Assembly: GCF_003010935.1 (NCBI RefSeq) | Contig: NZ_PGGN01000004.1 | Coordinates: 434,001-498,000, forward strand | Source: Phyllobacterium endophyticum | Lineage (GTDB): Bacteria; Pseudomonadota; Alphaproteobacteria; Rhizobiales; Rhizobiaceae | DNA length: 64,000 nt | Direction of reading: 5' to 3' | In this document: piece by piece, positions 20,509 through 36,544 of the stretch | Layout: every line of letters starts with the position of its first letter | Numbering within the stretch: the first letter of the stretch is position 1 | Translations under genes and position numbers: made by a program | The notes under the pieces: generated by a model | What the model was told of the DNA's origin: nothing | Seen by the model: only the letters and a program-made list of their open reading frames with translations | Databases searched by the model: none

Positions 20509-21543
20509 TTACCAGCTCAGGACAACTTTGCCGGAGCTTCCGGAGCGCATCGCGTCAAAGCCGGTCTGAAAATCGTCGATTGGCAGCCTGTGTGTGATAA
20601 TGGGTGACAGATCAAGGCCGCCTTGGACAAACGCGATCATCTTGTACCAGGTCTCGAACATTTCGCGGCCATAGATGCCTTTGAGATTTAGCATCTTGAA
20701 GATTACCTTGTTCCAGTCAATCTCGAAACCGGTCGGTGCGATGCCGAGAATGGCGATCTTGCCGCCATTGTTCATCTTGTCGATCATGTCCCGAAATGCT
20801 GGTGCTGCCCCTGACATTTCAAGACCGACATCGAAACCTTCAGTCATGCCGATGTCCTTCATGACATCGGCGAGATTTTGCACCGATGCATCGACCACAT
20901 GATCTATCCCGAGTTTGCGCGCGAGGGCGAGGCGCGCCGGGTTGATATCGGTGATGACAACCTTGCGGGCTCCTGATCGCTTTGCGACCAGTGCCCCCAT
21001 GATACCGATTGGGCCCGCACCGGTAACGAGCACATCTTCTCCAACAAGATCGAAGCTCAGAGCTGTATGCACGGCATTGCCGAAAGGATCGAATATTGCG
21101 GCGATTTCATCCGAAATATCATCTGGAATCGGCACTACATTGTCTTCCGGAATGCAGACATACTCGCCAAAGGAACCAGGACGATGTACGCCGACACCAA
21201 GCGTGTTGCGGCAAAGATGTCCCCTGCCTGCGCGGCAATTGCGGCAAATGCCGCAAACGATATGACCTTCTCCCGATACACGCTGTCCCACGTTGTATTT
21301 GGTCACCGACGAGCCGATCTCGGCGATTTCGCCGCTGAACTCGTGACCCACGACCATCGGCACCGGGATCGTAGCTTCAGCCCATTTGTCCCAGTTGTAG
21401 ATATGGACGTCAGTGCCGCAAATGGCAGACTTTTTAACTCGTATCAGCACGTCGTTAGGACCAGGCTCCGGGACCGGAACGCGTTGCATCCAGATTCCAG
21501 GTTCGGCCTTCGCCTTGACCAGTGCCTTCATCATGTTCGACAT
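20509..21543 (-). CDS. tdh: L-threonine 3-dehydrogenase
   Basis: This 344-residue medium-chain dehydrogenase oxidises L-threonine to 2-amino-3-ketobutyrate with NAD. Catalytic zinc ligands are seen in [14 protein letters not shown] (C42) and GHEFSGE (H67/E68); structural zinc cysteines are in [15 protein letters not shown] (C97, C100, C103, C111). The NAD fold begins [22 protein letters not shown] is characteristic of Tdh. The kbl gene ends 9 bases upstream, and the two enzymes act in sequence to give glycine and acetyl-CoA, so this is a threonine-degradation operon. Confidence 0.97.
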
Positions 21544-21552
21544 GGTTCTATC

Positions 21553-22743
21553 CTATTTTATGACGCCGAGATCACGCCCGACTTCAGCAAAAACCTCGAT
21601 CACGCGAGCGACGTCTTCGGTGGTATGGGCGGCAGACATTTGCGTGCGAATGCGAGCTTGGCCTTTCGGCACCACCGGAAAGGCAAAACCGATGACATAG
21701 ACGCCCTTCTCCAGCATGCGTGAAGCCATCTCCTGCGCCAGCGTGGCTTCGCCAAGCATCACCGGAATAATGGGGTGATCAGCACCGGCCAAATTGAAGC
21801 CAAGCCTTGTCATATCACGACGAAAATGGGCGGCATTGGCGCTGAGACGAGCGCGCAGGTCCGCGCCCTGCTCAATCAGATCAAACACTTTCAGCGATGC
21901 TGCTGCAATTACGGGAGCGAGGGTGTTCGAAAAAAGATAGGGCCGCGAGCGCTGACGCAGCCAGTCGACCACCTCGCGCTTGCCGGACGTGTAGCCGCCC
22001 GACGCGCCGCCAAGCGCCTTACCCAACGTGCCGGTAATAATATCGACGCGACCTTCGACGCCGCAATGCTCGGCAGAGCCGCGACCGTTTTCGCCGACGA
22101 AACCGACCGCATGGCTATCGTCCACCATGACCAAGGCGCCATATTTTTCGGCAAGATCACAGACTCCCTGCAAATTCGCAATGATACCGTCCATCGAAAA
22201 TACGCCGTCGGTAGCGATCATCTTGAAGCGGCTACTCTCGGCTTTCTTCAGTTCTTCCTCCAGCGCTGCCATGTCATTATTGGCGTACCGGAAGCGTTTC
22301 GCCTTGGACAGACGCACGCCGTCGATGATCGAGGCGTGATTGAGTGCATCGGAAATGATTGCATCTTCTTCGGCAAGCAACGTTTCGAACAGACCGCCAT
22401 TGGCATCGAAGCAGCTGGAATAAAGAATGGTGTCGTCGAGGCCGAGGAAGCTGGAGATGCGGGCTTCGAGCTGCTTATGTTCTTCCTGGGTGCCGCAGAT
22501 GAACCGCACCGAGGCCATCCCATAGCCATAACGGTCGAGTGCTGCCTTGCCCGCTGCTGCAAGTTCTTCGTTGTCGGCAAGCCCAAGATAATTGTTGGCG
22601 CAGAAGTTGAGTACCTTTGCGCCTGAATCTACAACGATCTGTCCCGCTTGTTTCGAAGTTATGACGCGCTCGGTCTTGTAAAGCCCGGACTGTTTCAGTC
22701 CCGCGAGTTCGGAAGAAAGGTGGTCGATGAAAGCCTTGGTCAT
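21553..22743 (-). CDS. kbl: 2-amino-3-ketobutyrate CoA ligase (glycine C-acetyltransferase)
   Basis: This 396-residue PLP enzyme of the alpha-oxoamine synthase family splits 2-amino-3-ketobutyrate with CoA into glycine and acetyl-CoA. The family signatures [39 protein letters not shown] and the PLP lysine region [18 protein letters not shown] are present and the length is normal. It is the first gene of the kbl-tdh operon; the 79-base gap to the ABC ATPase gene upstream leaves room for a promoter. No dedicated regulator is adjacent. Confidence 0.97.
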
Positions 22744-22822: not shown

Positions 22823-24637
22823 TCAGATCTGAACCAGATGCCCTGACGCGACTTCGGCGTAGTGGCGGAGCGGAACCACGTAGTCCGGAGCCCGGACGGG
22901 GCTTTTAATCTCGTCACTGGAGGCAGGCCGCTTGACACCCCTTCGCGAAGGATCTGGAACGGGTACGGCTGCAATCAGCCTTTTGGTATAGGGATGTTGC
23001 GGATTTTCAAAGATCGCGGCGCGGGGCCCGATCTCGACGATTTCGCCCAGATACATGACGGCGATACGGTGACTGACGCGTTCGACCACGGCGATATCAT
23101 GCGAGATGAACAGATAAGCGAGGTTGAGGCTTGCCTGGAGGTCGAGCAGAAGGTTGATGACTTGCGCCTTGATCGAAACGTCGAGCGCCGAAACAGACTC
23201 ATCCGCAACGATGATCTTTGGGTCAAGCGCCAATGCGCGGGCGATACAGACGCGCTGGCGCTGACCGCCGGAAAATTCATGCGGATAGCGGCTCGCCATG
23301 TCTGCGGCAAGACCCACTCGCTCGAGCAGATCGGCAACGCGCTCACGTGCTTCGGCACGGGTTCCAAGTTTGTGTTCCAGATACGGCTCTGCAATGGCCG
23401 CGCCGACGGTCATGCGCGGATTTAAACTGGCGAACGGGTCCTGGAATATCATCTGCATGGTCCGGCGCATGTCACGCAACTGCTTCGCGTCCATGGTCAG
23501 GATGTCCTGACCATTGAGGAGCACTTCGCCGGCCTGGGCCTGAACAAGGCGCATGATCGAGCGCCCTGTCGTCGACTTGCCACAGCCGGACTCGCCGACA
23601 AGTGACAAGGTTTCACCGGGCTGCAGTGTGAAGGACAGGTTTTCGACAGCGTGCACTCTGCCCTCGAGCTGGCCGAACATACCGGAATGGATGTTGAAAC
23701 GCGTCGTAAGATTGCGTACTTCGAGCAGCGGCTGGACCCCCGCTTGCACCGTATCGGCCGCTTCGACCGGCGTGTCGGATGTGCCGGTAGCGCGATCGAC
23801 CACCGGAAATCGCAAAGGCCGCTCGTGCCCTTTCATCGAGCCCAGAACCGGAACTGCCGACAACAGCGAACGCGTGTACGGATGCTGCGGCCGCGCGAAG
23901 ATGTCTTCGGTCTTGCCGGTTTCGACCGCCTCGCCATTATACATGACCACGGTCCGGTCGGCGATCTCCGCCACTACGCCCATATCGTGGGTGATAAAGA
24001 GAACAGAGGTACCCTCCTCGTCCTGCAACAATTTTATAAGATCGAGGATCTGGCCCTGAATGGTCACGTCCAGAGCTGTGGTCGGTTCATCGGCGATAAG
24101 CAGTTTTGGTTTGCTTGCCAGCGCCATCGCAATCATCACGCGCTGGCGCATTCCGCCCGAGAAGCGATGTGGATACTCATTGGATCGCGATTTCGCGGCA
24201 GGTATCCGCACCTTTTCGAGGAGCCGGATTGTCTCCGCCTTCGCTTCGGCGCGCGACATGGCGTGATGGCAAAGCAGTGCTTCGCTGATCTGTTGGCCAA
24301 CTGTGAACAGCGGGTTGAGACTTGTCATGGGTTCCTGGAAGATCATGGCGACGTCATTGCCGCGTACGCCGCGCATCTGGTTCTCCGGCAAGGCGAGTAT
24401 GTCCTTTCCGCCCAGCATGATCTTCCCCTCGATGCGGCTCTTGTCTCCCTGGAGAAGTCGCATGATAGAAAGCGACGTGACGCTCTTGCCCGATCCGGAC
24501 TCACCCACAATTGCCACGGTTTCTCCGGGCCTGACATCAAAAGAGACATCACGCACCACAGGGCGCCACTTGCCGTCGGTCAGAAACGATGTGGTTAGGT
24601 TTGAAACCGAAAGAACCGGGGCGACGTAGTTTTCCAT
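22823..24637 (-). CDS. Fused double-ATPase of a peptide-type ABC importer
   Basis: This 604-residue protein carries two complete ABC ATPase domains, equivalent to DppD and DppF in one chain. Walker A motifs are GESGSGKS (45-52) and GESGCGKS (348-355); signatures are FSGGMRQRV (159-167) and FSGGQRQRV; both domains have Walker B IADEP/VADES and the C-terminal oligopeptide-transporter tail (QHPYTRSLLSAVP, QHPYTKRLIAAVP). It would power the permeases encoded at 28530-30340, which lack another ATPase. It follows the SelA-like gene by 15 bases, so transporter and enzyme genes are mixed in one regulon. Confidence 0.94.
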   Translation of the reverse strand: MENYVAPVLSVSNLTTSFLTDGKWRPVVRDVSFDVRPGETVAIVGESGSGKSVTSLSIMRLLQGDKSRIEGKIMLGGKDILALPENQMRGVRGNDVAMIFQEPMTSLNPLFTVGQQISEALLCHHAMSRAEAKAETIRLLEKVRIPAAKSRSNEYPHRFSGGMRQRVMIAMALASKPKLLIADEPTTALDVTIQGQILDLIKLLQDEEGTSVLFITHDMGVVAEIADRTVVMYNGEAVETGKTEDIFARPQHPYTRSLLSAVPVLGSMKGHERPLRFPVVDRATGTSDTPVEAADTVQAGVQPLLEVRNLTTRFNIHSGMFGQLEGRVHAVENLSFTLQPGETLSLVGESGCGKSTTGRSIMRLVQAQAGEVLLNGQDILTMDAKQLRDMRRTMQMIFQDPFASLNPRMTVGAAIAEPYLEHKLGTRAEARERVADLLERVGLAADMASRYPHEFSGGQRQRVCIARALALDPKIIVADESVSALDVSIKAQVINLLLDLQASLNLAYLFISHDIAVVERVSHRIAVMYLGEIVEIGPRAAIFENPQHPYTKRLIAAVPVPDPSRRGVKRPASSDEIKSPVRAPDYVVPLRHYAEVASGHLVQI

Positions 24638-24652
24638 GTTCCTATCCTTCGA

Positions 24653-25864
24653 TCAATCGGGCCAGCGCATCATGCCGGCAATACGGCGGGCGTAGCGTTC
24701 TTCCAATGGCGTCGCGATGATATCATTCGAGGCTCGGGCCTTGCCAAGCTCCTCTTCAAGACGCCTTGCCACGATCTTCTCCTCACCCGGATGCAGGTTG
24801 CACGGATCCATGTAAAAAAAGCCATGCTCGGCTTCGTGATCCCGCACAATGATGGGCTGTGCACCCTTCGCTAGTGCATCGGCGAAATCCCAAGCTGTAA
24901 TATGGGCTTCTTCTGGAATGACTGTCACTTTTAGACGGTCAAGCGGATTGTGGGTCGGGTCCGGTTCAATCTCGGCGGCGATACCGCGCTTGCCGGATAG
25001 CGTCTGCTTCCATAAATTCAGATATCCGGTTTCTTTTGCGCGGATACCGGCATGATCGCGCTTTTCCCAAGCTTCAAGTGCCGCGATGGTACCAAGGATG
25101 CTTTCCTTGCCCAGTTTCATACCCCGACCAATGCCCATATTCTGAAGGAAGGCATTTCGAACCAGGTCCTTGCGTCCGGCAACAATGCCGCCAGTCGGGC
25201 CGCCAAGAAATTTATGCGAAGAATAAAGCGCAATGTCGGCGCCCTGGGCGAGAAATATCTTCAGGTCGTACTCCGACGCAGCATCAACGATGACCGGAAC
25301 GCCGTGCGCATGACAGATTTCGGCGAACGTCCTCAGGGCGATCAAACCATACTGGACTGTGTGGTGCGAAACCACGAAGACGGCTGCGGCTGTTCGTTCA
25401 TTGATGGCACCCTCTAGGTGGTAGGGATGGCACGAGGTGGCTTGGCCGATGAGAACTGGCTTGGCTCCTGGAAGCCGGATGCCCTGGTCAACCGGCGCCC
25501 CGTAGCTGACAACATGGCCCATCTGTATGATGACCTCACTCTTCAGCCCAGTTGTGTCCGGCAGCCGTTCGATAGCTGCGAGGTCGCTTCCCGTCATTGT
25601 TGCAGCCACGGCGAGACTGATCCCCGCCGAACAGGACGCTGTCACAAAGCCTGCCTCGCCCCCGGTCAGGCGTGCTATCACGGGGCTCGCCTTTTTATGG
25701 AGATCGTTGATTTCCACAAATTGCGGGAGTATGGCATTCATCGCCGTAATGGCCTCCGGCACAACGATGGACGCCCCGAGTGATGTCATCGTTCCCGAGA
25801 CATTGATAACCGGCCTTAGTCCAAGCGACTGGCGGATGTCGGGCGACGTATGAGAGTCGGTCAT
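24653..25864 (-). CDS. SelA-like PLP-dependent lyase/transferase
   Basis: This 403-residue fold-type I PLP enzyme resembles the selenocysteine-synthase-like family that includes D-glucosaminate-6-phosphate ammonia-lyase. Visible features are [16 protein letters not shown] near the N-terminus, a glycine/Ser-rich cofactor loop TASCSAGIS (76-83), D194 in VIVDAA contacting the PLP ring, and K218 in [12 protein letters not shown] as the Schiff-base lysine. It is too short for a true SelA and no selenium genes are near. Relatives are often linked to COG3964 amidohydrolases, as here. A dehydrating or deaminating lyase is the best guess; the substrate is unknown. Confidence 0.78.
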
Positions 25865-25882
25865 GATATTCTCCTCAAAAGG

Positions 25883-25917
25883 TATTCCGCTTGCTTGGCA
25901 TATATGCCGCTATAATG
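25883..25917. promoter_or_regulatory. Candidate IclR operator between the SelA-like and iclR genes
   Basis: The 99-base divergent spacer contains the perfect palindrome GGCATATATGCC (25898-25909) and CCGCTATAATG (25907-25917). The second is almost identical to CCACTATAATG in front of the substrate-binding protein gene at 31975-31985. TATTCC also precedes the motif in both places. The sharing suggests one regulator, most likely the IclR protein, controls both promoters. Confidence 0.45.
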
Positions 25918-25963
25918 TAATAATGCGCCAGAGAACTTCATCGATTGTACCAGGAGCCTGAAA

Positions 25964-26791
25964 GTGGACGCGAAGGCATCAGACATGGACGCATCCGACG
26001 GCATTCAGCAATCGGCTGATGCGCCCGCTAGGCGCTCGCGCGTCAGCGGTATCGATCGCGCCCTGCAGGTTCTGGATTATCTCTATGAAACAGGAAGTCC
26101 GGCCGGCGTCTACGCGATAGCCAAGGCTATAGGCGCACCGCTGTCGACGGTTTACGTGATCATTGACGATCTCGTGGAAAAGAACCTTCTGTCGCGCAAC
26201 GGCGACAGCACTGTCTGGCTCGGAGCGCGCCTTTATCACTACGGTCTTGCCTATGCGCGCTCGCTGGATTTTCTCAATGTGGCCAATCACGAGATGCATA
26301 ATCTCAGCCGCGTTTCGGGCGAAACGGTGCAGGTCTGTGGCCGCGATGGTGATCATATGATGGTGCTCGCGATGGCTGATGGGCCAGGTCATTTCCAGGT
26401 GACGTCGCGTGTCGGCACCCGCGTCCCACTCAATTGGACGGCATCCGGCCGCCTGCTCGTTGGACATCTCCCGGAACAGGAACGGCTGGATCTGTTCGAG
26501 CATTGCGCGAAATCTTCCCCGACAGGACGTGCCGTTATTGATCCCTCCGTCTTGTCGCAATCGGCCAAACAAGCCCTGCAGGCACGCATTTCCATACAGG
26601 CGGGCGAATCCGATTATGCCGTCGCGTGCGTTGCCTCTCCAATCTGCGACGACAAGGGCGCCTGTATCGCGACCATTTCCATTGTTCTTCCCGAGCAGAA
26701 AATCGCCGAGAATCCCGACCGCTATACGGCCGAGGTAAAAGCCTCGGCGGAACGGATCGAAACGGTGATGGGTTGGCGCAGTCATTCCTGA
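25964..26791 (+). CDS. IclR-family transcriptional regulator
   Basis: Start GTG 25964 has AGGAG 7 bases upstream. The 275-residue protein has an N-terminal winged helix-turn-helix (about 25-90: GIDRALQVLDYLYE, GAPLSTVYVIIDDLVEKNLL) and an IclR effector domain (about 100-270) with VPLNWTASGRLLVGHLP and DYAVACVASPICD. IclR proteins usually repress, or sometimes activate, neighbouring catabolic genes and are relieved by a pathway metabolite. It sits in the middle of the amidohydrolase/ABC cluster, divergent from the SelA-like gene and convergent with the RidA-like gene. Confidence 0.93.
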   Translation: MDAKASDMDASDGIQQSADAPARRSRVSGIDRALQVLDYLYETGSPAGVYAIAKAIGAPLSTVYVIIDDLVEKNLLSRNGDSTVWLGARLYHYGLAYARSLDFLNVANHEMHNLSRVSGETVQVCGRDGDHMMVLAMADGPGHFQVTSRVGTRVPLNWTASGRLLVGHLPEQERLDLFEHCAKSSPTGRAVIDPSVLSQSAKQALQARISIQAGESDYAVACVASPICDDKGACIATISIVLPEQKIAENPDRYTAEVKASAERIETVMGWRSHS

Positions 26792-26792
26792 T

Positions 26793-27290
26793 CTAATCCT
26801 TCAAAGATATGATTGCCTCGATTTCCACGGTGATATTGCCAGGCAGAGAACTGAACCCGACGGCTGAACGGGCATGGTTGCCGGCCTCCCCGAACACATT
26901 GATCAGCAAGTCCGAGCATCCGTTGATGACGGATGGGTGATCGGCAAAATCAGGTACTGCATTGACCATGCCCAGAAGCTTCACCACGCGTTTGACGCGC
27001 CGCAAATCTCCTAGCGCCGAATGCATGACCGCAAGCAGGTTGATACCAGTGAGACGTGCGTGCTTGTAGGCCTCTTCGACGCTTACATAGGCGCCGACCT
27101 TACCGGTGTGCATGTACCCGTCCTCTTCCCGCGGTCCCTGCCCCGACAGGTACAGCATATTGCCTTCCTGAATGTGGGTGACGAAATTCGCGATCGGGCT
27201 CGGGGCCGGGGGAAGAACTATGCCCAGCGCCTTGAGACGATCATAGGGGGAAACGTCGGCATCGATTGCCGGACTTGGTAGGTCACTCAA
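26793..27290 (-). CDS. RidA (YjgF/YER057c) family protein
   Basis: The frame is open for 68 codons upstream, but that part lies inside the amidohydrolase gene. TTG 27290 is chosen because GAGGA precedes it by about 8 bases and it falls 11 bases after the amidohydrolase stop. The 165-residue product begins with YDRLKALGIVLPPAPSPIANF and has LYLSGQGP, ALGDLRRVKRVVKLLGMVNA and ARSAVGFSSLPGNITVEIEA, as in the longer RidA subfamily. RidA proteins hydrolyse reactive enamine/imine products of PLP enzymes to keto acids and ammonia. The SelA-like PLP enzyme in the same cluster could be the source. Confidence 0.88.
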   Translation of the reverse strand: MSDLPSPAIDADVSPYDRLKALGIVLPPAPSPIANFVTHIQEGNMLYLSGQGPREEDGYMHTGKVGAYVSVEEAYKHARLTGINLLAVMHSALGDLRRVKRVVKLLGMVNAVPDFADHPSVINGCSDLLINVFGEAGNHARSAVGFSSLPGNITVEIEAIISLKD

Positions 27291-27300
27291 GGCGAATTCC

Positions 27301-28527
27301 TCAACGGTATGAATAGGGCGCAATGGCGCCGGATGTTTCAGGCTTGACGGGCTGGTAGCGGCTGGCGGCGATTGGCTCATTACCGAGGACTGCCCAGTGT
27401 GGTTCGAACAACTTGTCGAGCCTTGCTTCGTAACCCATGGAGTCGATGACTGTGAGATCGGAATCGGCGAGTTCGAAGATGGTGAAATCGGCACGCGTCC
27501 CGACCGACAGGAGGTTCTCCGTCGGCAGATTGATCGCCGATGCCGGAGAGATCGTCACTGCTTCCACCACCTTGTCGAATGGCATGCCTACGCTCAGCAG
27601 CTTGGACATGGTGGTGCCTAGGTCCCACACTGCGAAGTTCAAGCTACGCAGATGAATATCGGTCGAGATCGAAAATGGCAGGAGTCCGCGCTGGATCGCG
27701 ACTTCCGCCACGCGGAACGAGAACGAGGCGCCGCCGTGTCCGATGTCGAGACGTATCCCCTCACCCGCACAACGTGCCGCCAGTTCAAACAGATCATCGT
27801 CCTCGATGATGCTGCTGCCGACCTTGCCGTTGAAGCAATGGGTGATGATGTCTCCCGGACCGAGGATTTCCAGCACCTCGTCGTAGAGCGCCGGCGGTTC
27901 GCCAACATGCACCATCATCGGGATCTTCAGGATTTTTGCGAGCTTCTTACCGACTTTGACCGGCGTCACTCCCCAGGAGCCGGTAATCACATGGCTGGCA
28001 CGCACCTTCAGTCCAACGATGTGATCGCGGTTTTCATTAACGCAGGCAACAGTACGATCGATGTCGATCGACTTGATGTCGCTGAGTTCGCTTACCCGAT
28101 TGCAGGCTACGAGCCCGATCGAGCCCAGGTTTAGAAACGCCTTGATACGTTCACGTGCCGGATCAATGATGTATTCACGAAATCCGTGGAAGTTGGCTTC
28201 ACCCGCCGAACCTGCGTCAACGATGGTGGTGACGCCCCGCTCGGCGCCGCAGAGTTGCGGGCGCACCGAAATATCCGTGCCGCCATGCCAGATGTGTGTG
28301 TGCAGATCGACCCAGCCCGGGGAAATCCATGCGCCCTTGCCGTCGACACGGCGCACATCGCCATGGACATTCAGCGAAGGCCCAAACTCGGCAATCCTGC
28401 CGTCAGCGTCGATCAGGATATCGATGGCGGACGAAGGCGTATTCGGTCCGAACGAAACCGGTTTGATATTGGTCAGCAGCAAGCGCCCTTCGATTGGAGA
28501 ATTGGCGGTTGCAGAAGAGGCAGGCAT
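27301..28527 (-). CDS. COG3964-type amidohydrolase/deacetylase
   Basis: ATG 28527 is two bases after the permease stop and follows AAGGATCT; the longer frame lies within the permease gene. The 408-residue TIM-barrel metallohydrolase shows DLHTHIW (H76, H78), a lysine in GLKVRASH for the bridging carboxylate, MVHVGEPP, THCFNG and DIGHGGASFS. It is widely misannotated as dihydroorotase. Relatives in Agrobacterium (Atu3266) and Ochrobactrum (Oant2987) were shown to deacetylate acetylated alpha-hydroxy acids. Here it is flanked by permease and RidA genes, so it probably deacylates the imported compound. Confidence 0.85.
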   Translation of the reverse strand: MPASSATANSPIEGRLLLTNIKPVSFGPNTPSSAIDILIDADGRIAEFGPSLNVHGDVRRVDGKGAWISPGWVDLHTHIWHGGTDISVRPQLCGAERGVTTIVDAGSAGEANFHGFREYIIDPARERIKAFLNLGSIGLVACNRVSELSDIKSIDIDRTVACVNENRDHIVGLKVRASHVITGSWGVTPVKVGKKLAKILKIPMMVHVGEPPALYDEVLEILGPGDIITHCFNGKVGSSIIEDDDLFELAARCAGEGIRLDIGHGGASFSFRVAEVAIQRGLLPFSISTDIHLRSLNFAVWDLGTTMSKLLSVGMPFDKVVEAVTISPASAINLPTENLLSVGTRADFTIFELADSDLTVIDSMGYEARLDKLFEPHWAVLGNEPIAASRYQPVKPETSGAIAPYSYR

Positions 28528-28529
28528 AA

Positions 28530-29399
28530 TCAGAGATCCTTTCTGAGACGGGGGTCGAGAAGGTCGCGGAAACCGTCGCCAACCATCTGCAGGGAAAGTA
28601 CGGCAAGCACGATGGCAATCCCGGGGAATAGCGTCATCCAATCGGCCGTTCCGATATACTGACGGCCTGAGGCGATCATCGTGCCCCACGTGGGGACTTC
28701 CGGGCTGACCCCGAGGCCGAGGAATGAAAGACCTGCTTCGGCTAGCATGGCATTGGCAAAAAGGAACGTGCCCTGTACCAAAATGGGCGAGAGCAGGTTT
28801 CGCAGGATATGCCGCGTCATGATGTGCGACGTTGAAATTCCGAGCGATGTGGCGGCTTCGACATAGGGTAGTTCCCGGATGACCAGTGTCGAGGCGCGAA
28901 CGATACGAGCGAGGCGTGGTGCGTAGACGATGCTTAGGGCGACGATAACCGTTGTCAATGACGGCCCGAGCGCTGCAACGAGCGCTATCGCCAGCAGAAT
29001 GTCCGGGAAGGCCATCATCGCATCTATCAGGCGGGTGATCGGCGCATCCAGCTTATGGAAATATCCAGCAAGTATACCGAGGGTCACACCGATCAGCGAT
29101 GCAAGCACGACCACGGCGAAACCGACCAATAGGGATAACCGCGCCGAAAAGATCGTCCGCGAGAATACGTCGCGGCCGAATTCGTCCGTGCCGAAGAACC
29201 ACTTCATGCTCGGCGGCTTCAGACGGTTGACGATGGACAATTTGCTGGGCGAATAGGGTGTGATCAGGGGCGCGAAGACCGCAAGGAGCACGAAGATGGC
29301 GAGAACGATCAGGCCGAACAGAACGGTCTTGCGCCGTATCAAAATCCGGAAAAACTTCGAGCGCTCGCTTGTCGGGATGTTGGTTGCAATATCGGCCAT
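28530..29399 (-). CDS. Peptide-type ABC permease (DppC family)
   Basis: This 289-residue inner-membrane protein has about six helices. It has the DppC/OppC hallmarks: LKPPSMKWFFGTDEFGRDVFSR after the first helix (given here in part as FGTDEFGRD), and the cytoplasmic EAA loop LGISTSHIMTRHILRN that docks with the ATPase. It overlaps the DppB-type gene by one base, so the two are co-translated and form the transmembrane pore of one importer. The amidohydrolase gene follows almost immediately. Confidence 0.93.
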   Translation of the reverse strand: MADIATNIPTSERSKFFRILIRRKTVLFGLIVLAIFVLLAVFAPLITPYSPSKLSIVNRLKPPSMKWFFGTDEFGRDVFSRTIFSARLSLLVGFAVVVLASLIGVTLGILAGYFHKLDAPITRLIDAMMAFPDILLAIALVAALGPSLTTVIVALSIVYAPRLARIVRASTLVIRELPYVEAATSLGISTSHIMTRHILRNLLSPILVQGTFLFANAMLAEAGLSFLGLGVSPEVPTWGTMIASGRQYIGTADWMTLFPGIAIVLAVLSLQMVGDGFRDLLDPRLRKDL

Positions 29400-30340
29400 C
29401 AGTAGCGCACCCTTGGATCGACGACGAGGTAGAGCATATCAATGGCAAAGTTGATGAGGACGTAGAGCGCAGCGATGATCAACAGAGCGCCTTGGATGAC
29501 TGGGTAGTCCCGCCTCAACACCGCCGACACGACGAGACTGCCGACACCGGGAAGACCAAATACAGTTTCTGTGACAACAGCACCCGAGATCAGCACGGCA
29601 GCTGTCAAACCCAGCACGGTGAGGATCGGAATCAGCGCGTTTTTGAAGGCATGTTTTAGGACGACCCGGCGCTCATCCACACCCTTGGCACGTGCTGTGC
29701 GAATATAGTCGTCGCCAAGCACATCCAACATAGAGGCGCGGGTGAAACGCATGATGAGCGCGGAGGAAACGATGCCGAGCGCAAACGCCGGTAGCACCAG
29801 GTATCCAAGTCGTTCCATCAACGATGTTCCCGGCCCGCCATAGCCGGATACCGGAAACAGCCCAAATCGTACGGCGAATATCTGCATCAAGATGAGTCCC
29901 AGCCAGAAGCTTGGGATGCTTGCGGCAAGCATCGCTACCGCTGTTGCTGCCTGATCGAAGAATGACCCGCGCCGGTATGCAGCATAGATGCCGATCGGAA
30001 TGGCGATGACGCTGGCAATCAACAGTGAGAAGATTGTGAGAAAGAAGGTCGGTTCGGCGCGCTGGGCCAGCGCCTGGAGTACGGGCTGGTTGAGAAAGAT
30101 GGACTGTCCCAGATCGCCCTTGAACAGATTGCCGATGAAATAGAGATATTGCAGCAGGATGGATTGATCGAGCCCTAGTTGCTGACGGAGCGCCGTAATG
30201 TCCGCCGCAGTCGCCTCCGGCCCGAGCATCACGGCAGCGGGATCACCCGGCGTGACGCGTACGATGACGAAAACTATCGTCACCACCAGGAACATCACGA
30301 TGATCATGCCGATAAAGCGTTGGAGTATGTAGCGGAGCAT
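29399..30340 (-). CDS. Peptide-type ABC permease (DppB family)
   Basis: This 313-residue permease has about six membrane helices. It begins with the DppB signature MLRYILQRFIGMIIVMFLV and RVTPGDPAAVMLG. The EAA loop is ARAKGVDERRVVLKHAFKN and GLPGVGSLVV follows. With the DppC-type partner it makes the channel for uptake of the solute delivered by the substrate-binding protein encoded 85 bases upstream. The gene order (binding protein, B, C) is standard for this transporter class. Confidence 0.94.
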   Translation of the reverse strand: MLRYILQRFIGMIIVMFLVVTIVFVIVRVTPGDPAAVMLGPEATAADITALRQQLGLDQSILLQYLYFIGNLFKGDLGQSIFLNQPVLQALAQRAEPTFFLTIFSLLIASVIAIPIGIYAAYRRGSFFDQAATAVAMLAASIPSFWLGLILMQIFAVRFGLFPVSGYGGPGTSLMERLGYLVLPAFALGIVSSALIMRFTRASMLDVLGDDYIRTARAKGVDERRVVLKHAFKNALIPILTVLGLTAAVLISGAVVTETVFGLPGVGSLVVSAVLRRDYPVIQGALLIIAALYVLINFAIDMLYLVVDPRVRY

Positions 30341-30425
30341 ATGGTCGAATCGTTTTCTCTTGCAGTTTTACTGAAGAATGGTCGCAGGAGTGGAAAGTCC
30401 CTGCCCGCGACTGTTGCACTCTGCG

Positions 30426-31955
30426 CTATTGCTTCAGCGAGACGTTCCAGAAATAAGGCCACGGCGCCGGCGTAAAGCCCTCGAGCTTGGATGATTTTGC
30501 CGATAGCGCGTTGAAATCACCGATCTTGATGATCGGGACTTCAGCATAGATCACCTTCTGTACTTCGGCCCAAAGTGCGACGCGCTTCTTTGGATCGACC
30601 TCAGAATTGAAGGCATCGACGGCCGTCTTGCGAGCGGGGGTATCCCAATTGCCGGGCGCGCTGGTCGACATGGCGCCAATCAAAGCGGGTTCCGGCAGGA
30701 AGGGGCTGTGACTGATATAAATGTCCCAAAGCTTCGGGTCGGCGCGTCGCTGGGTCAGCGTTGCCCAGTCCACGACCTGCATATCCACCGTGAAGCCCGC
30801 AGCCTTCAGATACTCGGCGGCAACCTGCGCCATCTTGTAGTGGAACTCATATTGGCGGCTGGTCAGGATGCGAATCGGTTCGCCATTGTAGCCGGCCTTC
30901 TTCATCAGCTCGGCAGCCTTTTCCGGATCGGCGACATTATAAGCGTTTTCGGTGCCCGCATCCGTCTTCCAGCTATATCCGTCGGGGTACATAGACGCAT
31001 TGAGCGAATAGAAATCGGTACTGCCGAAGGCCGCGGCCATCATGTCTTCCATGCTGAGCGAATCTCGAATTGCCAGTCTGATATCCTGGTTCTTGGTGAT
31101 TCCCGTACTGGTGTTCATGACGAAGACCGGCCAGCCGAATGGCTTGAGCAAAACGGCTTCAGTCGTTTTCTGGTCCTTCAGCCGATCATAGGCTTCAACT
31201 GGAAGGCTGTCGACGTAGTCGAACTGACCCGAAACCGCACCTTCGACACGTGTATTGGCATCCGGCACAGGAACAAAGCGGATTTCATCGAGATATTGAT
31301 GACGCGCACCACCATAGCCATTTTCGTCACCCTCGGGTGATTTGTAGCCGTCGAAACGCGCCAGCTGGATGTATTGGTCAGCCTTGCGTTCCTTCAGCAT
31401 ATATGGGCCCGTACCAACCGGATCGGTCATCGGGTTCTGCTGCTTCTCGCTCGGGAGGATGATCGCGGCGGCATTGTTGAAAGCCAGCAGCGAAACGAGC
31501 GGGGCATAAGGTGCGTTGAGAGAGATTTTCAAAGTCACAGGATCGGCAGCTTCGATCGAAGCGATCATCGAGGCTGTCTGCTTGCCGCGCGAGGCAACTT
31601 CCGTCCAGCGCTTCAACGAGGCGACGACGTCGGTCGAATCCATATCCGTGCCGTCATGGAACTTGACGCCGGTGCGAAGTTTTATGGTGTAGACTTTGCC
31701 GTCGCCCGAAACTTCGGGAAGACTGGCAGCGAGAAGTGGTGTGACGTTCCAGCTTTTGTCGAACGTGTAGAGAGTTTCGAAAATATGCTGCGAGACAATG
31801 CCGACAAGATCCGCCGTCGAGGCCATAGCATCGAGCGTGGGCGGCTCGCCGATCGTGGCGACGTTGATGACCCCGCCTTTTGTCTGAGCGAAAGCGGAGG
31901 GGCTAACAGCAATCAGCGCTGAACCAAGAAGGAGTGCGAGCTTCAGTGATTTCAT
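30426..31955 (-). CDS. Periplasmic substrate-binding protein of the peptide-type importer
   Basis: ATG 31955, behind AAAGGGAACC, gives a 509-residue protein with signal peptide (1-23, ending PSAFAQ). It is a family 5 extracellular solute-binding protein: GEPPTLDAMAST, LRTGVKFHDGTDMDSTDVV and YSWKTDAGTENAYN mark the cluster-C fold. Such proteins bind di/oligopeptides, nickel, or other compounds such as opines and glycosides; the ligand cannot be told here. Its promoter region holds an inverted repeat shared in part with the SelA-like gene promoter. It is first in the transporter operon. Confidence 0.94.
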   Translation of the reverse strand: MKSLKLALLLGSALIAVSPSAFAQTKGGVINVATIGEPPTLDAMASTADLVGIVSQHIFETLYTFDKSWNVTPLLAASLPEVSGDGKVYTIKLRTGVKFHDGTDMDSTDVVASLKRWTEVASRGKQTASMIASIEAADPVTLKISLNAPYAPLVSLLAFNNAAAIILPSEKQQNPMTDPVGTGPYMLKERKADQYIQLARFDGYKSPEGDENGYGGARHQYLDEIRFVPVPDANTRVEGAVSGQFDYVDSLPVEAYDRLKDQKTTEAVLLKPFGWPVFVMNTSTGITKNQDIRLAIRDSLSMEDMMAAAFGSTDFYSLNASMYPDGYSWKTDAGTENAYNVADPEKAAELMKKAGYNGEPIRILTSRQYEFHYKMAQVAAEYLKAAGFTVDMQVVDWATLTQRRADPKLWDIYISHSPFLPEPALIGAMSTSAPGNWDTPARKTAVDAFNSEVDPKKRVALWAEVQKVIYAEVPIIKIGDFNALSAKSSKLEGFTPAPWPYFWNVSLKQ

Positions 31956-31969
31956 GACGGTTCCCTTTG

Positions 31970-32011
31970 TTATTCCACTATAATGGATCATAGTGTTTTA
32001 TAGTAGAATAA
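31970..32011. promoter_or_regulatory. Operator-like inverted repeats upstream of the transporter operon
   Basis: TTATTCCACTATA (31970-31982) and TATAGTAGAATAA (31999-32011) are inverted copies matching at 12 of 13 positions. A nested repeat, CACTAT-N8-ATAGTG (31976-31995), shares the left arm. The site begins 15 bases upstream of the binding-protein start, a position suited to repression. The IclR protein encoded 6 kb away in the same cluster is the natural candidate to bind it. Confidence 0.55.
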
Positions 32012-32099: not shown

Positions 32100-33392
32100 T
32101 TAAATTATCCCGCCGCCGCCAGCGGCAGTTAGCGGTCGTTCCTTGCCGACCAATTCGCGGTAACCACTCTTGCGGTAAGTGGCGACAGGATCGATCGCTC
32201 CGGCTGATCGCCGGCGTGCCTCCGCGAGGATCGGTTCGACATCCGTGCGATAGGCGCGCTTCAACGCGTCTGAAGCCATCAGAGCATCGTTCTCATCCTG
32301 GTAAGCGCTCAATGCCTTTCGATCCACCAGCAAAGCCTGAGCGTAAGCCCGGCGAATTTCATTGGCGCTTGAGATCAGGCTTTCGATCGGATCCGTGACA
32401 TTGTGCGACTGATCAATCATGTGAGCGGGATGGAAGTTCTCTACGCCGCGATCTTCCGCGTCGACCAGTTCATTGAAGACAAGAAACAGGCGATAGGGAT
32501 CGATCGAACCCGCATCGAGATCGTCATCGCCATATTTGGAATCATTGAAATGGAAGCCGCCTAGTTTCTTGAACTGGATCAGCCGCGAAACGATCATCTC
32601 TATATTGGTATTCGCCGCATGGTGGCCCAGATCGACAAGGCAATAGGCTTTCGGCCCCAATGTCTGCGCGATCAGATAGTTTGTCCCCCAATCCTGCACT
32701 ACCGTGGAATAGAAGGCCGGCTCATACATTTTGTGCTCGGAGAAAATGCGCCAATTATCAGGCAGCGCTTTATATATCTCCGTCATCGATCCGAGATAAC
32801 GCTCGAAGGCTTTGGCGAAATTGCTCTGCCCCGGAAAATTGGAACCATCGCCAATCCACACAGTCAGGGCTTTCGAGCCAATCGCCGCACCGATCTCGAT
32901 ACATTCGATGTTGTGCTCGATTGCCTGTGTCCGCGTCGCCGCATTCACATGGCTGAGCGATCCATATTTGTAGGAGTGCGCCTGATCGGGCGCATCGGAG
33001 AATGTGTTCGAATTCATTGCATCGAAACCAAGTCCGTGCGCATCGGCATGGGCCTTCAGATGTTTCGGATCCGCCTTGTCCCAAGGGATATGCAACGACA
33101 CATTCGGGGTTGTCCGCGTCAATTGCTGGATCACCGCACAGTCGTCGAGCTTATCGAAGATGCCGCGCGGCTCGCCTATGCCGGGAAAGCGCGCAAACCG
33201 TGTTCCACCCGTGCCAACACCCCAGGACGGTATTGCGACGAAAAATTCCGCAACCTTGTTGGTGATTGCATCGATATCGATGTTGCGTCGCGCGAGATGA
33301 GCGCCCAGCGCCTCGTAGTCGCTCTTGTGTGCAGCGAGCAGCCGGTCGTTTTCGGCCGCAATCAGTTCACCGGAAATATGTAACTCAGCCAT
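32100..33392 (-). CDS. rhaI: L-rhamnose isomerase (RhaI type)
   Basis: ATG 33392 has GGGAGAACG upstream; upstream codons of the frame overlap the end of rhaD. The 430-residue TIM-barrel isomerase converts L-rhamnose to L-rhamnulose. Metal and substrate residues are suggested by SLHIPWDKAD, EHKMYEPAFYSTVVQDWG, LVDLGHHAANTN and GFHFNDSKYGDDDLD. This is the Pseudomonas/rhizobial RhaI type, unrelated in detail to E. coli RhaA. It is the second gene of a rhaD-rhaI operon divergent from the regulator and transporter genes. Confidence 0.95.
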   Translation of the reverse strand: MAELHISGELIAAENDRLLAAHKSDYEALGAHLARRNIDIDAITNKVAEFFVAIPSWGVGTGGTRFARFPGIGEPRGIFDKLDDCAVIQQLTRTTPNVSLHIPWDKADPKHLKAHADAHGLGFDAMNSNTFSDAPDQAHSYKYGSLSHVNAATRTQAIEHNIECIEIGAAIGSKALTVWIGDGSNFPGQSNFAKAFERYLGSMTEIYKALPDNWRIFSEHKMYEPAFYSTVVQDWGTNYLIAQTLGPKAYCLVDLGHHAANTNIEMIVSRLIQFKKLGGFHFNDSKYGDDDLDAGSIDPYRLFLVFNELVDAEDRGVENFHPAHMIDQSHNVTDPIESLISSANEIRRAYAQALLVDRKALSAYQDENDALMASDALKRAYRTDVEPILAEARRRSAGAIDPVATYRKSGYRELVGKERPLTAAGGGGII

Positions 33393-33417
33393 GACGTTCT
33401 CCCGAGACTGGACAGTA

Positions 33418-35514
33418 CTAACGCGTAAAGCTCTGCGCGTTGCCCGCATCAACGTTGATGATATTGCCAGTCGATTTGGCAGATGCATCCGAGGCAAGAA
33501 AATATACCGCTTCGGCGATGTCTTCCGGCAGCACATTAAGCTTCAGCAGTGAACGCTTGCGGTAGTGTTCCTCGAGTTCGTCAACCTGCAGATTGGAGGA
33601 GGCGGCGCGCTGCTCCCGCCACTCTCCGTTCCAGATTTTCGAACCCCGCAGCACCGCATCGGGATTGACCGTATTGACGCGAATGCCACCTTCCGCGCCT
33701 TCCAGCGCGAGACAGCGGGCGAGATGGATTTCCGCAGCCTTGGCAGCACAATAGGCGCTTGCATTGGGCGATGCGGCAAGGCCGTTCTTCGATGCAACGA
33801 AGACAACGTTACCGCCAATCTTCTGCCTGCGGAACAGCCGGAACGCCTCGCGTGAGACCAGAAAGTAGCCAGTTGCAAGAATGTCGATATTGCGCGTCCA
33901 CATCGAAAGCTCAGTCGTCTCGATTGGCGCCGAGGATGCGATGCCCGCATTGGAAACGAGAATGTCGACGCCGCCAAACTCCACGGAAGCTTCGGCGTAG
34001 CTCGCGATCACCCCCGCCTCATCCGTCACGTTCAACTGAACGCTGCGCACGGCGTCCGCCGTATAGCGTTTGGCGAAATCGTCATGCGCCGTCTTCAGTG
34101 CTTCAGCATCAATGTCGGCAAGCACCACACAGGCGCCCTCGCCCAAAAGCCGTTCCGCCGTCGCCCGGCCGATGCCGCCGGCGCCGCCGGTGACGAAAGC
34201 CACTCGGCCGGCCAATGACTTGGATTTCGGCATGCGCTGGAGCTTGGCTTCTTCGAGTAGCCAGTACTCGATGTCGAAGGCCTCCTGCTCGGGCAGGCCT
34301 TGATATTCGGAAACCAGGGAGGAGCCACGCATGACGTTGATCGCATTAACATAGAATTCGCCAGCAATCCGAGCGGTCGCCTTGTCTTTGGCGAATGACA
34401 GCATGCCGACGCCGGGAATGAGGAAAATCACGGGGTTTGGATCACGCATTGCCGGCGAATTGTTGTGCTTGCATTCATTGTAGTAGCGGGCGTAATCGGC
34501 GCGGTATGCTTGCAGAGCGTTGTCGAGCGATGCTGCTACCGCTTCGGCGTCCGGTTTGGCCGGATCGAGATCGAGCACAAGCGGCCGGATTTTCGTGCGA
34601 AGAAAATGGTCCGGGCAGCTGGTACCGAGAGCTGCGAGAGGGCGCAGATTGTTTGAGTTTACGAATTCGAGCACCGCCGGTTGATCATCGAAATGACCGA
34701 GCTTGCGCTCCGACACGCCGATTCTTCCACGAATTTCCGGCATCAATTTTGCTGCAAGAGCACGCCGTTCGGAGGCACTCAGACTCTTGGCAACCTCTCC
34801 GCCGAAGGCAGGTTTTCCCGCTGTTTTCCGATCGAACCAGATAATCGCCTTGTTGATGATGTCCAGCGTCAGTTCATAGCATTCCTTGGCATCATTGGCC
34901 CACGTGAATAGACCATGGCTTTCGAGCACAACACCTTTTGAATTTGGATGGTTAGCCGCATAGGCGCCAAGATCGAGACCAAGCTGGAAACCGGGTCGGC
35001 GCCACGGCAGCCAACCGATCTCGTCGCCGAAGATTTCCTGCGTCAATTCCCGGGAGTTTTTTGACGCGGCAATGGCGATGATCGCATCCGGATGCATGTG
35101 ATCGACATGTTTAAACGGCACCAATCCGTGCAGCGGCGTATCGATGGAAGCGGCACGGCTATTGAGGTTGAAGGTGCAGTGCGGCAGGAAGCCGACCATG
35201 CGATCCTCTTCCTCGACGCCCTTGTAGATGGACTTCAGCGATTCCAGCTTTTCCATATAAAGCGTGGCAAAACCATCGAGCTTGATCGTGCCGACATCGC
35301 CGCCCGATCCCTTGACCCACAGCACCTCGACCGGGTTTCCAGTCAGCGGATCGGTTTCCATGATTTTCGCAGAGGTATTGCCACCACCGTAATTGGTAAT
35401 GCGCTTGTCGGCACCCAGCAGATTGGAGCGGTAAAGCAGCTTGCCCGGCTCATCCAGATCAGCGGCCTTTTGATCATTCCAACGATTATCCAGAAGTTGG
35501 ACCTTGTCTGCCAT
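33418..35514 (-). CDS. rhaD: Bifunctional rhamnulose-1-phosphate aldolase/short-chain dehydrogenase
   Basis: ATG 35514 has GGGAGG upstream. The 698-residue protein is a fusion. Residues 1-425 form a class II aldolase domain with NYGGGNTSAK (41-50), the zinc-site HVDHMHPD (H139, H141) and ESHG (H200). Residues 435-698 form a short-chain dehydrogenase with TGGAGGIG (442-449) and YCAAK (Y588, K592). The aldolase splits L-rhamnulose-1-phosphate into dihydroxyacetone phosphate and L-lactaldehyde, and the dehydrogenase can oxidise the lactaldehyde to lactate. The fusion is normal for rhizobial RhaD. It opens the rhaDI operon. Confidence 0.95.
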   Translation of the reverse strand: MADKVQLLDNRWNDQKAADLDEPGKLLYRSNLLGADKRITNYGGGNTSAKIMETDPLTGNPVEVLWVKGSGGDVGTIKLDGFATLYMEKLESLKSIYKGVEEEDRMVGFLPHCTFNLNSRAASIDTPLHGLVPFKHVDHMHPDAIIAIAASKNSRELTQEIFGDEIGWLPWRRPGFQLGLDLGAYAANHPNSKGVVLESHGLFTWANDAKECYELTLDIINKAIIWFDRKTAGKPAFGGEVAKSLSASERRALAAKLMPEIRGRIGVSERKLGHFDDQPAVLEFVNSNNLRPLAALGTSCPDHFLRTKIRPLVLDLDPAKPDAEAVAASLDNALQAYRADYARYYNECKHNNSPAMRDPNPVIFLIPGVGMLSFAKDKATARIAGEFYVNAINVMRGSSLVSEYQGLPEQEAFDIEYWLLEEAKLQRMPKSKSLAGRVAFVTGGAGGIGRATAERLLGEGACVVLADIDAEALKTAHDDFAKRYTADAVRSVQLNVTDEAGVIASYAEASVEFGGVDILVSNAGIASSAPIETTELSMWTRNIDILATGYFLVSREAFRLFRRQKIGGNVVFVASKNGLAASPNASAYCAAKAAEIHLARCLALEGAEGGIRVNTVNPDAVLRGSKIWNGEWREQRAASSNLQVDELEEHYRKRSLLKLNVLPEDIAEAVYFLASDASAKSTGNIINVDAGNAQSFTR

Positions 35515-35605
35515 ACTCGCCTCCCGAAAAGTCAATTGCCAGCTCAGGACAGATCGTCCGGCCGTTGCTATTTGCACCTAGCTATGGAGCAGATCGCATT
35601 TTGTT

Positions 35606-35687
35606 GTCAATCATAAACGGTCAATTTCAATCATAAACTTACGATTGTGCAGTGCAATATGAAACTATTTGACTGAAGTTGATTGAC
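35606..35687. promoter_or_regulatory. Candidate RhaR operator in the rhaD-rhaR divergent region
   Basis: TCAATCATAAAC occurs twice in direct orientation, 20 bases apart (35607-35618, 35627-35638). The second copy is half of a near-palindrome, CAATCATAAACTTACGATTG (35628-35647). An inverted copy of GTCAATCA, TGATTGAC, lies at 35680-35687. Repeats phased by two helical turns between divergent operons fit binding by the DeoR-type RhaR to control both directions. Confidence 0.6.
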
Positions 35688-35734
35688 ACCAGCGCCGTTT
35701 TTGCGCCATAGATTATCACAAGAGGAGGATAAGC

Positions 35735-36544
35735 ATGCACGAGCGTGAGCGCCACCGCATCATTCTGAGCGCTGTTCAGGAAAAGCCGGTCATCACCATT
35801 CAGGACATTGCCGAACTGACGGAAGCGTCGGAAGCAACGATCCGTCGTGACATTGCCTCGCTCCATGTCAAAGGCAAGCTGCGCCGGGTGCGTGGGGGCG
35901 CCGAAGCCGTACATCCACCGCAACTGACGCCCCTCGCCGGACGGCACTTTCATGTTTCCGAATCGGAAAACGCCGACAAAAAGCGCGCCATCGCCCGCGA
36001 GGCCGTTGCGCTGTGCGAAGAAGGCGATGCCATCATCATCAATGGCGGCACGACAACATTCCAGATGGTTCATTTCCTTGCGTCGCGGCGGTTGCAGGTG
36101 ATGACCAATTCATTCGCGATTGCCGAGCATCTGGTGAAGAATTCCAAGAGTTCGGTCACTGTGCCGGGCGGGGCGATCTACCGCGAGCAAAGCATCATCC
36201 TTTCGCCCTTCGACAATGATGTGACGCGTAACTTCTACGGAAAGCGCATGTTCATGGGCTCGCAGGGCGTTGGCCCGTTTGGAGTCATGGAATCCGACGC
36301 GCTCATTATTCAAGGCGAGCAGAAACTGATCAATCAGGCCGATGAGCTTGTCCTGCTCGTCGATTCGACCAAGTTCGCTCGCCGCTCGAGTCTCATCCTC
36401 TGTCCGTTGCAGCGCGTTGCTACCATCATCACCGATGACGGCATTTTGGATGCGGACCGAAAAATGGTCGAGAATGCAGGCGTTAAACTCATCATCGCAA
36501 GCGTAAGTCAGGAAAAATCAAGGAATTCCGTTTCCGTCGCATGA
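35735..36544 (+). CDS. rhaR: DeoR-family regulator of rhamnose genes
   Basis: This 269-residue protein has a DeoR helix-turn-helix at the N-terminus (ERHRIILSAVQEKP, ELTEASEATIRRDIASL) and a sugar-phosphate-sensing DeoR C-terminal domain (INGGTTTFQMVHFL, DALIIQGEQKLINQADE). In Rhizobium leguminosarum RhaR is a DeoR-type negative regulator of the rha operons. The start ATG 35735 follows GAGGAGG. It is the first gene of the rhaRSTPQUK operon and overlaps the longer frame of rhaS by a few bases. Confidence 0.94.
   Translation: MHERERHRIILSAVQEKPVITIQDIAELTEASEATIRRDIASLHVKGKLRRVRGGAEAVHPPQLTPLAGRHFHVSESENADKKRAIAREAVALCEEGDAIIINGGTTTFQMVHFLASRRLQVMTNSFAIAEHLVKNSKSSVTVPGGAIYREQSIILSPFDNDVTRNFYGKRMFMGSQGVGPFGVMESDALIIQGEQKLINQADELVLLVDSTKFARRSSLILCPLQRVATIITDDGILDADRKMVENAGVKLIIASVSQEKSRNSVSVA

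Follow-up and report, generated by a model that had tools for sequence, protein, structure and literature searches.

The 64-kb stretch of DNA analysed here (the window) belongs to a 5.5-Mb genome whose nearest named relatives, judged by the lyase discussed below, are Phyllobacterium (91% identity to P. trifolii). At positions 22823-31955 it carries a module of genes for an importer, a metallo-deacetylase, a pyridoxal phosphate (PLP)-dependent lyase, a Rid-family protein and an IclR-family regulator, which would serve the breakdown of an acylated amino sugar acid. An open reading frame (ORF) check with Pfam and NCBIfam profiles found eight intact ORFs exactly where a preliminary description of this DNA had placed them. 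The first of two minus-strand runs comprises the genes for a periplasmic binding protein of the peptide/opine type (30426-31955; SBP_bac_5, PF00496, 238 bits), permease B (29399-30340; BPD_transp_1, 148.5 bits) and permease C (28530-29399; BPD_transp_1, 102 bits, and OppC_N) of an ATP-binding cassette (ABC) importer, a COG3964 metallo-deacetylase of the EF_0837/2OGJ type (27301-28527) and a RidA/YjgF protein (26793-27380; PF14588 (YjgF_endoribonc), 75.5 bits; PF01042, 50.1 bits), the start of which is uncertain (ATG at 27380, overlapping the deacetylase gene, or TTG near 27290). The second run holds the DgaE-like lyase gene (24653-25864) and the gene for the fused double ATPase of the importer (22823-24637; two ABC_tran domains; PRK10261, 841 bits, below the 1077 cut-off). 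Between the runs, on the plus strand and divergent from the lyase gene, lies the IclR gene (25964-26791; IclR_C, 93 bits; HTH_IclR, 35 bits). Operators for its product are predicted in the lyase/IclR divergent promoter (25904-25921) and before the binding-protein operon (31972-31989). The peptide-type importer with fused ATPase, the Rid protein and the IclR regulator reported before are all present, the arrangement being refined to two minus-strand runs with IclR on the plus strand, and the start of the binding-protein gene at 31955, also given before, agrees with the promoter-side sequence.

The deacetylase, previously assigned to COG3964, cleared the cut-off of PRK09237/COG3964 (NF006689; 428.8 versus 371 bits) and stayed below that of the EF_0837 family (TIGR03583; 291.5 versus 432 bits). 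It matched PDB entry 2OGJ, deposited as 'dihydroorotase', with 655 bits over residues 5-395, and contains the HxH, K, H, H and D motifs, which we take to be the metal site. 2OGJ is presumably Atu3266, a member, like Oant2987, of the cog3964 family. The second enzyme had been called SelA-like; a PLP enzyme is indeed present, but it is better named a DgaE-like ammonia-lyase, with 312 bits to TIGR01437 and D-glucosaminate-6-phosphate ammonia lyase (7LC0, 258 bits) as its nearest solved relative. Its PLP lysine is predicted to be residue 218, in the aligned SSHK motif. A true SelA (selenocysteine synthase) was rejected (TIGR00474, 46 bits versus a cut-off of 268); in databases, DgaE-like enzymes are often annotated as seryl-tRNA selenium transferases.

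Conservation of the module was counted over the best 80 of 103 confirmed lyase loci (Rhizobiales), eight loci being shorter than 19 kb and ended by contig ends. All eight genes could be identified in 63 of the 80 loci. Permease C and RidA were present in 80, the binding protein, permease B and the fused ATPase in 79 each, the deacetylase in 75 and IclR in 65. Because the genes recur together across these loci while flanking genes are mostly unshared (kbl and tdh at 9 of 80, rhaD at 9 and rhaI at 12), the module is not a chance grouping. In the window, a kbl-tdh pair (threonine degradation; 20509-22743) lies directly downstream, and genes for rhamnose catabolism (by eye, RhaI- and RhaD-like) with a DeoR-like regulator adjoin the module at 32100-36544. 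A link to threonine through the first of these neighbours was rejected on the above counts, as was a link to rhamnose through the second.

At the level of single genomes, the deacetylase was found in 50 and the lyase in 55 of 297 genomes of the same family, with both in 50 and the deacetylase alone in none, when a cut of at least 52% identity was applied to both proteins. This cut left out 43 deacetylase rows at 32-40% and three lyase rows at 30-36%; second fragments of G546 and G665 were also left out, a partial lyase row of G438 was kept, and G636 and G925, which have identical coordinates, are probably one genome. The two genes lay within 10 kb of each other in 47 of the 50 pairs and 28-50 kb apart on one contig in the other three (L182-L184), where the deacetylase and IclR genes adjoin rha genes, which we read as a relic of gene order. 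The fact that every genome with a close deacetylase also carries the lyase supports the single pathway proposed in the preliminary description, and, judged by genome comparison, the deacetylase, lyase, importer, Rid and IclR genes form one functional unit.

The two operons also share an operator-like palindrome. The 65 loci with IclR were reduced to 34 non-redundant ones, whose lyase/IclR promoters yielded the motif ATTACATTATTATGGCAT; all 34 also have it upstream of the binding-protein gene, a result beyond the 95th percentile of either control. When the 64 kb were scored with a symmetrised matrix built on 24 sites, the lyase/IclR and binding-protein sites of the window ranked first and second (21.9 and 20.1; next best 11.4), although both belonged to the training set, which lessens the weight of this ranking. 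A degenerate 18-bp pattern derived from these two sites matched exactly only at them in the whole genome (C7, 459904 and 465972); with two mismatches there were four matches, versus two in a reversed control. Over the 80 loci, sites scoring at least 15 numbered 79 at the binding-protein gene, 59 at lyase/IclR and 5 elsewhere. A lone operator-like site (L082:4553-4570; 17.0) lies near no module gene start.

Outside the training set, the separated deacetylase and IclR genes of L182-L184 keep sites (18.4-22.1), and in two genomes with separated genes the palindrome is kept both at the deacetylase promoter (L182, L183) and at the importer-lyase operon (L132, L130). It was also found in eight of eight loci with a GntP-type permease (13.5-23.1). 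No site of at least 12 was found anywhere in the seven loci (of seven) that have an amino-acid-type importer and another IclR, nor was a site found at the promoters tested of L136, which has a LacI-like gene, or of the enteric and DgaE loci. Since the site stands at the divergent IclR promoter and is absent where another IclR or a LacI-like gene is present, we infer that the IclR protein binds it. With the same palindrome at both operons, the co-regulation of transporter and enzyme genes assumed earlier appears likely.

Four of the five sites elsewhere precede an operon of genes for a GNAT protein, a glycoside hydrolase of family 3 (GH3) and a second family-5 importer. The GH3 protein is NagZ-like (PRK05337, 180.7 bits, just under the cut-off of 207), and KHIPGHGRATLDSH was found in the four GH3 proteins checked; we take the motif KHIPGHG..DSH to be of the NagZ type. 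Among 24 genomes searched for this type of GH3, 13 had it (at least 83% identity), and the 10 that were fetched all bore a site before the GNAT gene (16.4-29.7). As for the three unfetched genomes, G925 corresponds to L071 and G923 to L079, both of which show the site; L061 (G924) is not in that list. In some genomes the operon lies off the module, on another contig in G265 (26.6) and about 85 kb away in G529 (29.7). The weaker sites of G603, G656 and G543 (16.4-16.7) may answer to another IclR. In two of these GNAT-GH3-importer operons (L265 and L266 of L262-L271), the site stands between the GNAT gene and a divergent tryptophan 2,3-dioxygenase-like gene (by eye). Hence, the regulon may reach a hexosaminidase in other rhizobia.

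The importer appeared to be interchangeable. In family f66, which is probably Burkholderiaceae, the lyase was found in 10 of 249 genomes. RidA, IclR, the lyase, a porin and a GntP permease were present in all seven GntP-type loci with full flanks; no COG3964 deacetylase was seen in these seven within the mapped stretch, which for variant loci covered about 6 kb around the core genes. In places, ORF selection for such loci took antisense or merged ORFs, for example at the aldolase position of L120 and for RidA of L133 and L178. The GntP protein of L137 is a gluconate:H+ symporter (489 bits versus a cut-off of 293), and those of the other loci are 86-98% identical. The remaining f66 loci comprise a short one (L195), one with the full ABC and deacetylase set (L190) and a different one (L196, with a 44% lyase). 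In the lyase tree the GntP clade is nested, with strong support, inside the deacetylase-bearing clade. In seven other loci the lyase and RidA are combined with an ABC importer of the amino-acid type (a hidden Markov model confirmed SBP_bac_3 in L134 only), and no deacetylase was seen near the lyase in their mapped stretch either; this importer label needs three changes on the tree, which may be repeated gains or a single gain followed by two losses. A gluconate-type and an amino-acid-type carrier, with a peptide-type carrier for the acylated form, would therefore point to D-glucosaminate and its N-acyl form, and glucosaminate fits because the swaps suggest a molecule both gluconate-like and amino-acid-like. 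D-serine would be the main alternative to it. Two further variants were observed: in L181, a GH1 beta-glucosidase gene between importer genes, which suggests a glycosylated substrate there, and a D-aminoacylase-type gene beside the lyase (L181:15633-16979, L181:6153-7754); and, in Rhizobium phaseoli/etli-type loci, a DUF1349 gene adjoining the binding-protein gene (L055:5058-5642, L132:4421-5005).

The deacetylase-lyase pair is not confined to such modules. All of the 11 genomes (out of 398) above the TIGR01437 cut-off have a COG3964-type deacetylase, 35-38% identical to that of the window, directly upstream of the lyase; by our reading of gene content, these genomes (family f49) are enterobacteria. 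In L119, one of these enterobacteria-like loci, the deacetylase matched EF_0837 with 575 bits and the lyase the DgaE family with 610 bits, and the third gene, after the pair, encodes a 2-dehydro-3-deoxy-phosphogluconate (KDPG) aldolase (394 bits; cut-off 300), the start of which is visible in seven of the eight such loci fetched. An aldolase of this type following the pair supports the order of deacylation before PLP-dependent elimination that had been suggested earlier, and the pair appears to be old and points to sugar acids.

On the basis of these results, the module is probably a regulon for the catabolism of a 2-amino sugar acid that carries an N-acyl group, with N-acetyl-D-glucosaminate (2-acetamido-2-deoxy-D-gluconate, GlcNAc1A) as the leading candidate. 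The SBP5/ABC importer would take up the acid itself or a short oligomer that has it as an end unit, and the COG3964 enzyme would remove acetate to give D-glucosaminate. The DgaE-like enzyme would then carry out the beta-elimination of the C3 hydroxyl and the amine, and the Rid protein would help to hydrolyse the released enamine/imine to 2-keto-3-deoxygluconate (KDG) and ammonia. A KDG kinase and a KDPG aldolase encoded elsewhere would finish the route; two members of the KDPG-aldolase family PF01081 were found in the window genome. The IclR protein would control both operons through the 18-bp palindrome. We are quite confident of the class of mechanism (deacylation, PLP-dependent beta-elimination, a Rid step and one IclR regulon). 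That the compound is an amino sugar acid seems likely to us, and GlcNAc1A itself is a substrate that we would somewhat favour. The preliminary description spoke of an unknown acylated amino compound; it is no longer wholly unknown, being probably a 2-acylamino sugar acid.

Several points weigh against this proposal. The window lyase lies below both DgaE models (TIGR01437, 312 versus 385 bits over residues 12-371; NF047797, 300 versus 600 bits) and is thus a full-length DgaE homologue and not a formal member. The module contains neither a KDG kinase nor an aldolase, and a KDG kinase was not searched for elsewhere. The window genome has no NagZ-like operon (its only GH3 match is at 42%) and no lytic polysaccharide monooxygenase of family AA10, so this strain would be a scavenger. 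Another 36 of the 297 genomes have only distant deacetylase homologues (32-40%); as 34 of them have no lyase, the tie to the lyase does not extend to the COG3964 family at large. Among 18 diverged module loci, a site of at least 12 was found at the binding-protein gene in 14 of 17 tested, but the lyase promoter had one in just 5 of 18, and dual control is therefore not universal; the null distribution for this comparison had a 99th percentile of 22.1, its windows having been drawn from loci that hold real sites. In several of these diverged loci, though not in others, the lyase and importer genes form one run. In L136, the deacetylase and lyase occur with another peptide-type importer, and no Rid gene was seen in the mapped stretch. 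The GntP protein of L137 also matched, below the respective cut-offs, the D-serine model DsdX (320 bits) and the gluconate transporter PRK14984 (405 bits), and GntP-family permeases also carry D-serine. Atu3266 reportedly acts best on O-acetyl-(R)-mandelate and weakly on N-acetyl-D-serine, and we know of no report on GlcNAc1A as its substrate. Finally, OngC, the deaminase of the ong pathway for GlcNAc1A, also deaminates D-Ser and D-Thr according to passages of the original paper (PMC9537276), which leaves a place for a smaller N-acyl-D-amino acid.

Such a small substrate (N-acetyl-D-serine or N-acetyl-D-threonine) would be deacetylated, dehydrated in a D-serine-type reaction to 2-aminoacrylate and converted with RidA to pyruvate. 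2-Aminoacrylate is the classic substrate of RidA, relatives of the GntP family include DsdX and seven lyase loci have an amino-acid-type importer, all of which, like the breadth of OngC, would fit this alternative. We nevertheless consider it unlikely, as the nearest characterised lyase is a D-glucosaminate-6-phosphate ammonia lyase, the enteric pair is followed by a KDPG aldolase, the palindrome also stands ahead of a NagZ-like hexosaminidase operon in other rhizobia and the 2OGJ enzyme reportedly turns over N-acetyl-D-serine very poorly. Improbable to a similar degree is that the same chemistry acts on a different amino sugar acid, such as an acid of the muramic or galactosaminic type, a derivative bearing a longer N-acyl chain or the aminogluconate found in the lipid A of rhizobia. 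As a NagZ-like glycosidase and another importer join the putative regulon, a disaccharide acid with a beta-linked N-acyl hexosamine is plausible; 2-aminogluconate occurs in the lipid A of rhizobia, and a GH1 glucosidase gene lies within the L181 operon. However, the module has no acyl-chain-specific genes, and in sequence this case is indistinguishable from that of GlcNAc1A. It is very unlikely that the deacetylase acts as an esterase on an O-acetyl hydroxy acid resembling acetyl-(R)-mandelate, with the lyase serving another amino compound that shares the importer: the reported activity of Atu3266 and Oant2987 and the family match to 2OGJ would agree with it, but the lyase accompanies the close deacetylase in 50 of 50 genomes, the pair is adjacent in all 11 enterobacteria-like genomes and the palindrome persists at both promoters after gene separation.

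Returning to the GlcNAc1A-type route, we would give about equal weight for and against a broader statement, namely that oxidised amino sugars are used in rhizobia and kindred soil bacteria by a second route of independent assembly, in which a COG3964 deacetylase and a DgaE-like lyase stand in for OngB and OngC of the ong pathway. This route would be governed by one IclR palindrome, in several genomes also over the NagZ-like operon, would use interchangeable importers (peptide-type ABC, GntP and amino-acid ABC) and would give Atu3266/2OGJ a natural job; as part of the same statement, its beta-linked disaccharide acids would come from oxidatively cleaved chitin or from the rhizobia's own aminogluconate lipid A. 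If true, the use of oxidised chitin sugars would extend to a large group of plant-associated bacteria, and the enzymes of the route would escape searches for ong genes. The structurally solved orphan deacetylase family, as well as DgaE-like enzymes, would gain a candidate natural substrate.

Among known systems, Atu3266/Oant2987 is a close homologue of the window deacetylase, as the 2OGJ match indicates; it has reportedly been characterised in isolation, as a deacetylase of acetyl-(R)-mandelate, and is not known to have been assigned to a pathway. The dga operon serves the use of D-glucosaminate by a phosphotransferase system (PTS), with DgaE (7LC0/7LCE) and DgaF acting on the phosphorylated substrate. 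Its lyase is homologous to that of the window (36-37% identity in L127 and L128) and exceeds the DgaE equivalog (711 bits, measured in L128 only), whereas its surroundings differ, with PTS-like import genes (by eye), no deacetylase seen beside the lyase and, in L127, a DgaF-family aldolase. The EF_0837/EF_0838/EF_0839 cluster (TIGR03583, TIGR01437 and TIGR03581), for which we know of no established function, contains a homologous deacetylase-lyase pair but has DUF4310, DUF4311 and SFCGS genes and an aldolase where the window has the ABC importer, RidA and IclR. Because TIGR03581 is named for EF_0839/AHA_3917, AHA presumably denoting Aeromonas hydrophila, the COG3964-DgaE pair is also a candidate in Aeromonas. 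Passages of a 2024 study of Aeromonas report distant or no matches to OngB and OngC and leave other deacetylases and deaminases possible (PMC11653859).

Our literature search, with subscription journals largely outside its reach, found no description of the COG3964-DgaE-RidA-ABC set; the preliminary statement that no pathway with this set had been described holds for the exact set and not for its logic, which is that of the ong pathway. No literature on rhizobial glucosaminate genes was found, and the passages located for Sinorhizobium and Ensifer mention D-glucosaminic acid without naming genes. According to passages of the ong paper, Pseudoalteromonas prydzensis ACAM 620 converts GlcNAc1A to KDG, acetate and ammonia via OngB and OngC, and the Rid protein OngD is essential, its role being unknown; one betaproteobacterium is named there with a complete pathway, the use of oxidised chitin sugars having been published mainly for Gammaproteobacteria (PMC9537276).

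The window deacetylase is not of the OngB type, as its 10 PDB hits (E≤1e-3) do not include 9KB1 and the OngB-like 9G5M appears at just E=8e-4 over residues 27-110. In the window genome, no OngB-like match was found at E≤1e-60, and a query with the putative OngC-like protein of L215 gave no match at E≤1e-20; at these thresholds, therefore, the module would work like ong without being a member of it. One locus, L193, offers a link to a GlcNAc1A deacetylase, as support and not as proof. Beside RidA it has a D-aminoacylase-family gene whose product scores higher against PpOngB (568 bits) than against D-aminoacylase (479 bits). Among the eight PpOngB residues taken from passages of PMC12017989, which gives those contacting GlcNAc1A or lining the OngB cavity, this protein has seven, with Thr in place of Ser292. 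The G836 relatives L213 and L214 have R298 and T292 as in BbDam, and since this BbDam-like contrast, too, has three of the eight residues, the telling score of L193 is four of five. Against it, exchange of Ser292 for Thr, at the diagnostic position, cut the kcat/Km of PpOngB to 1.3% (passages of PMC12017989). Three related ideas were dropped: the D-aminoacylase-type neighbour in L181 lacks OngB-type residues by eye and matches D-aminoacylase better; displacement of OngC in G694 was not supported, as an OngC-like gene is kept elsewhere in that genome; and an OngB-like gene does not mark GntP-type genomes, as all 10 tested have one (partial in G712), including two without a GntP cluster. Separately, an ong-like core (OngB-like, OngC-like PLP enzyme and RpiR-like regulator; Pfam checked in L215) was observed in L215-L219, a family that is probably Burkholderiaceae, with a Rid gene in three of the five.

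The likeness to ong lies in import, deacetylation without phosphorylation, PLP-dependent deamination, an essential Rid gene and a dedicated repressor, with a hexosaminidase in the pathway; in other rhizobia, the beta-N-acetylhexosaminidase and importer that may be under the same switch recall OngA. A Rid gene, a dedicated regulator and an importer are common to both clusters, the latter two being of other families: ong has an SSS symporter and a MurR/RpiR regulator, whereas the window has an ABC importer and IclR, and no kdgK. The enzymes differ as well, OngB being a subtype V D-aminoacylase-like protein and OngC a fold-type III PLP enzyme, whereas those of the window are of the COG3964 and DgaE-like types. 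Judged from sequence comparison, the logic of the pathway would thus match that of ong, and what is new would be the non-orthologous enzymes, the ABC importer and the IclR regulon.

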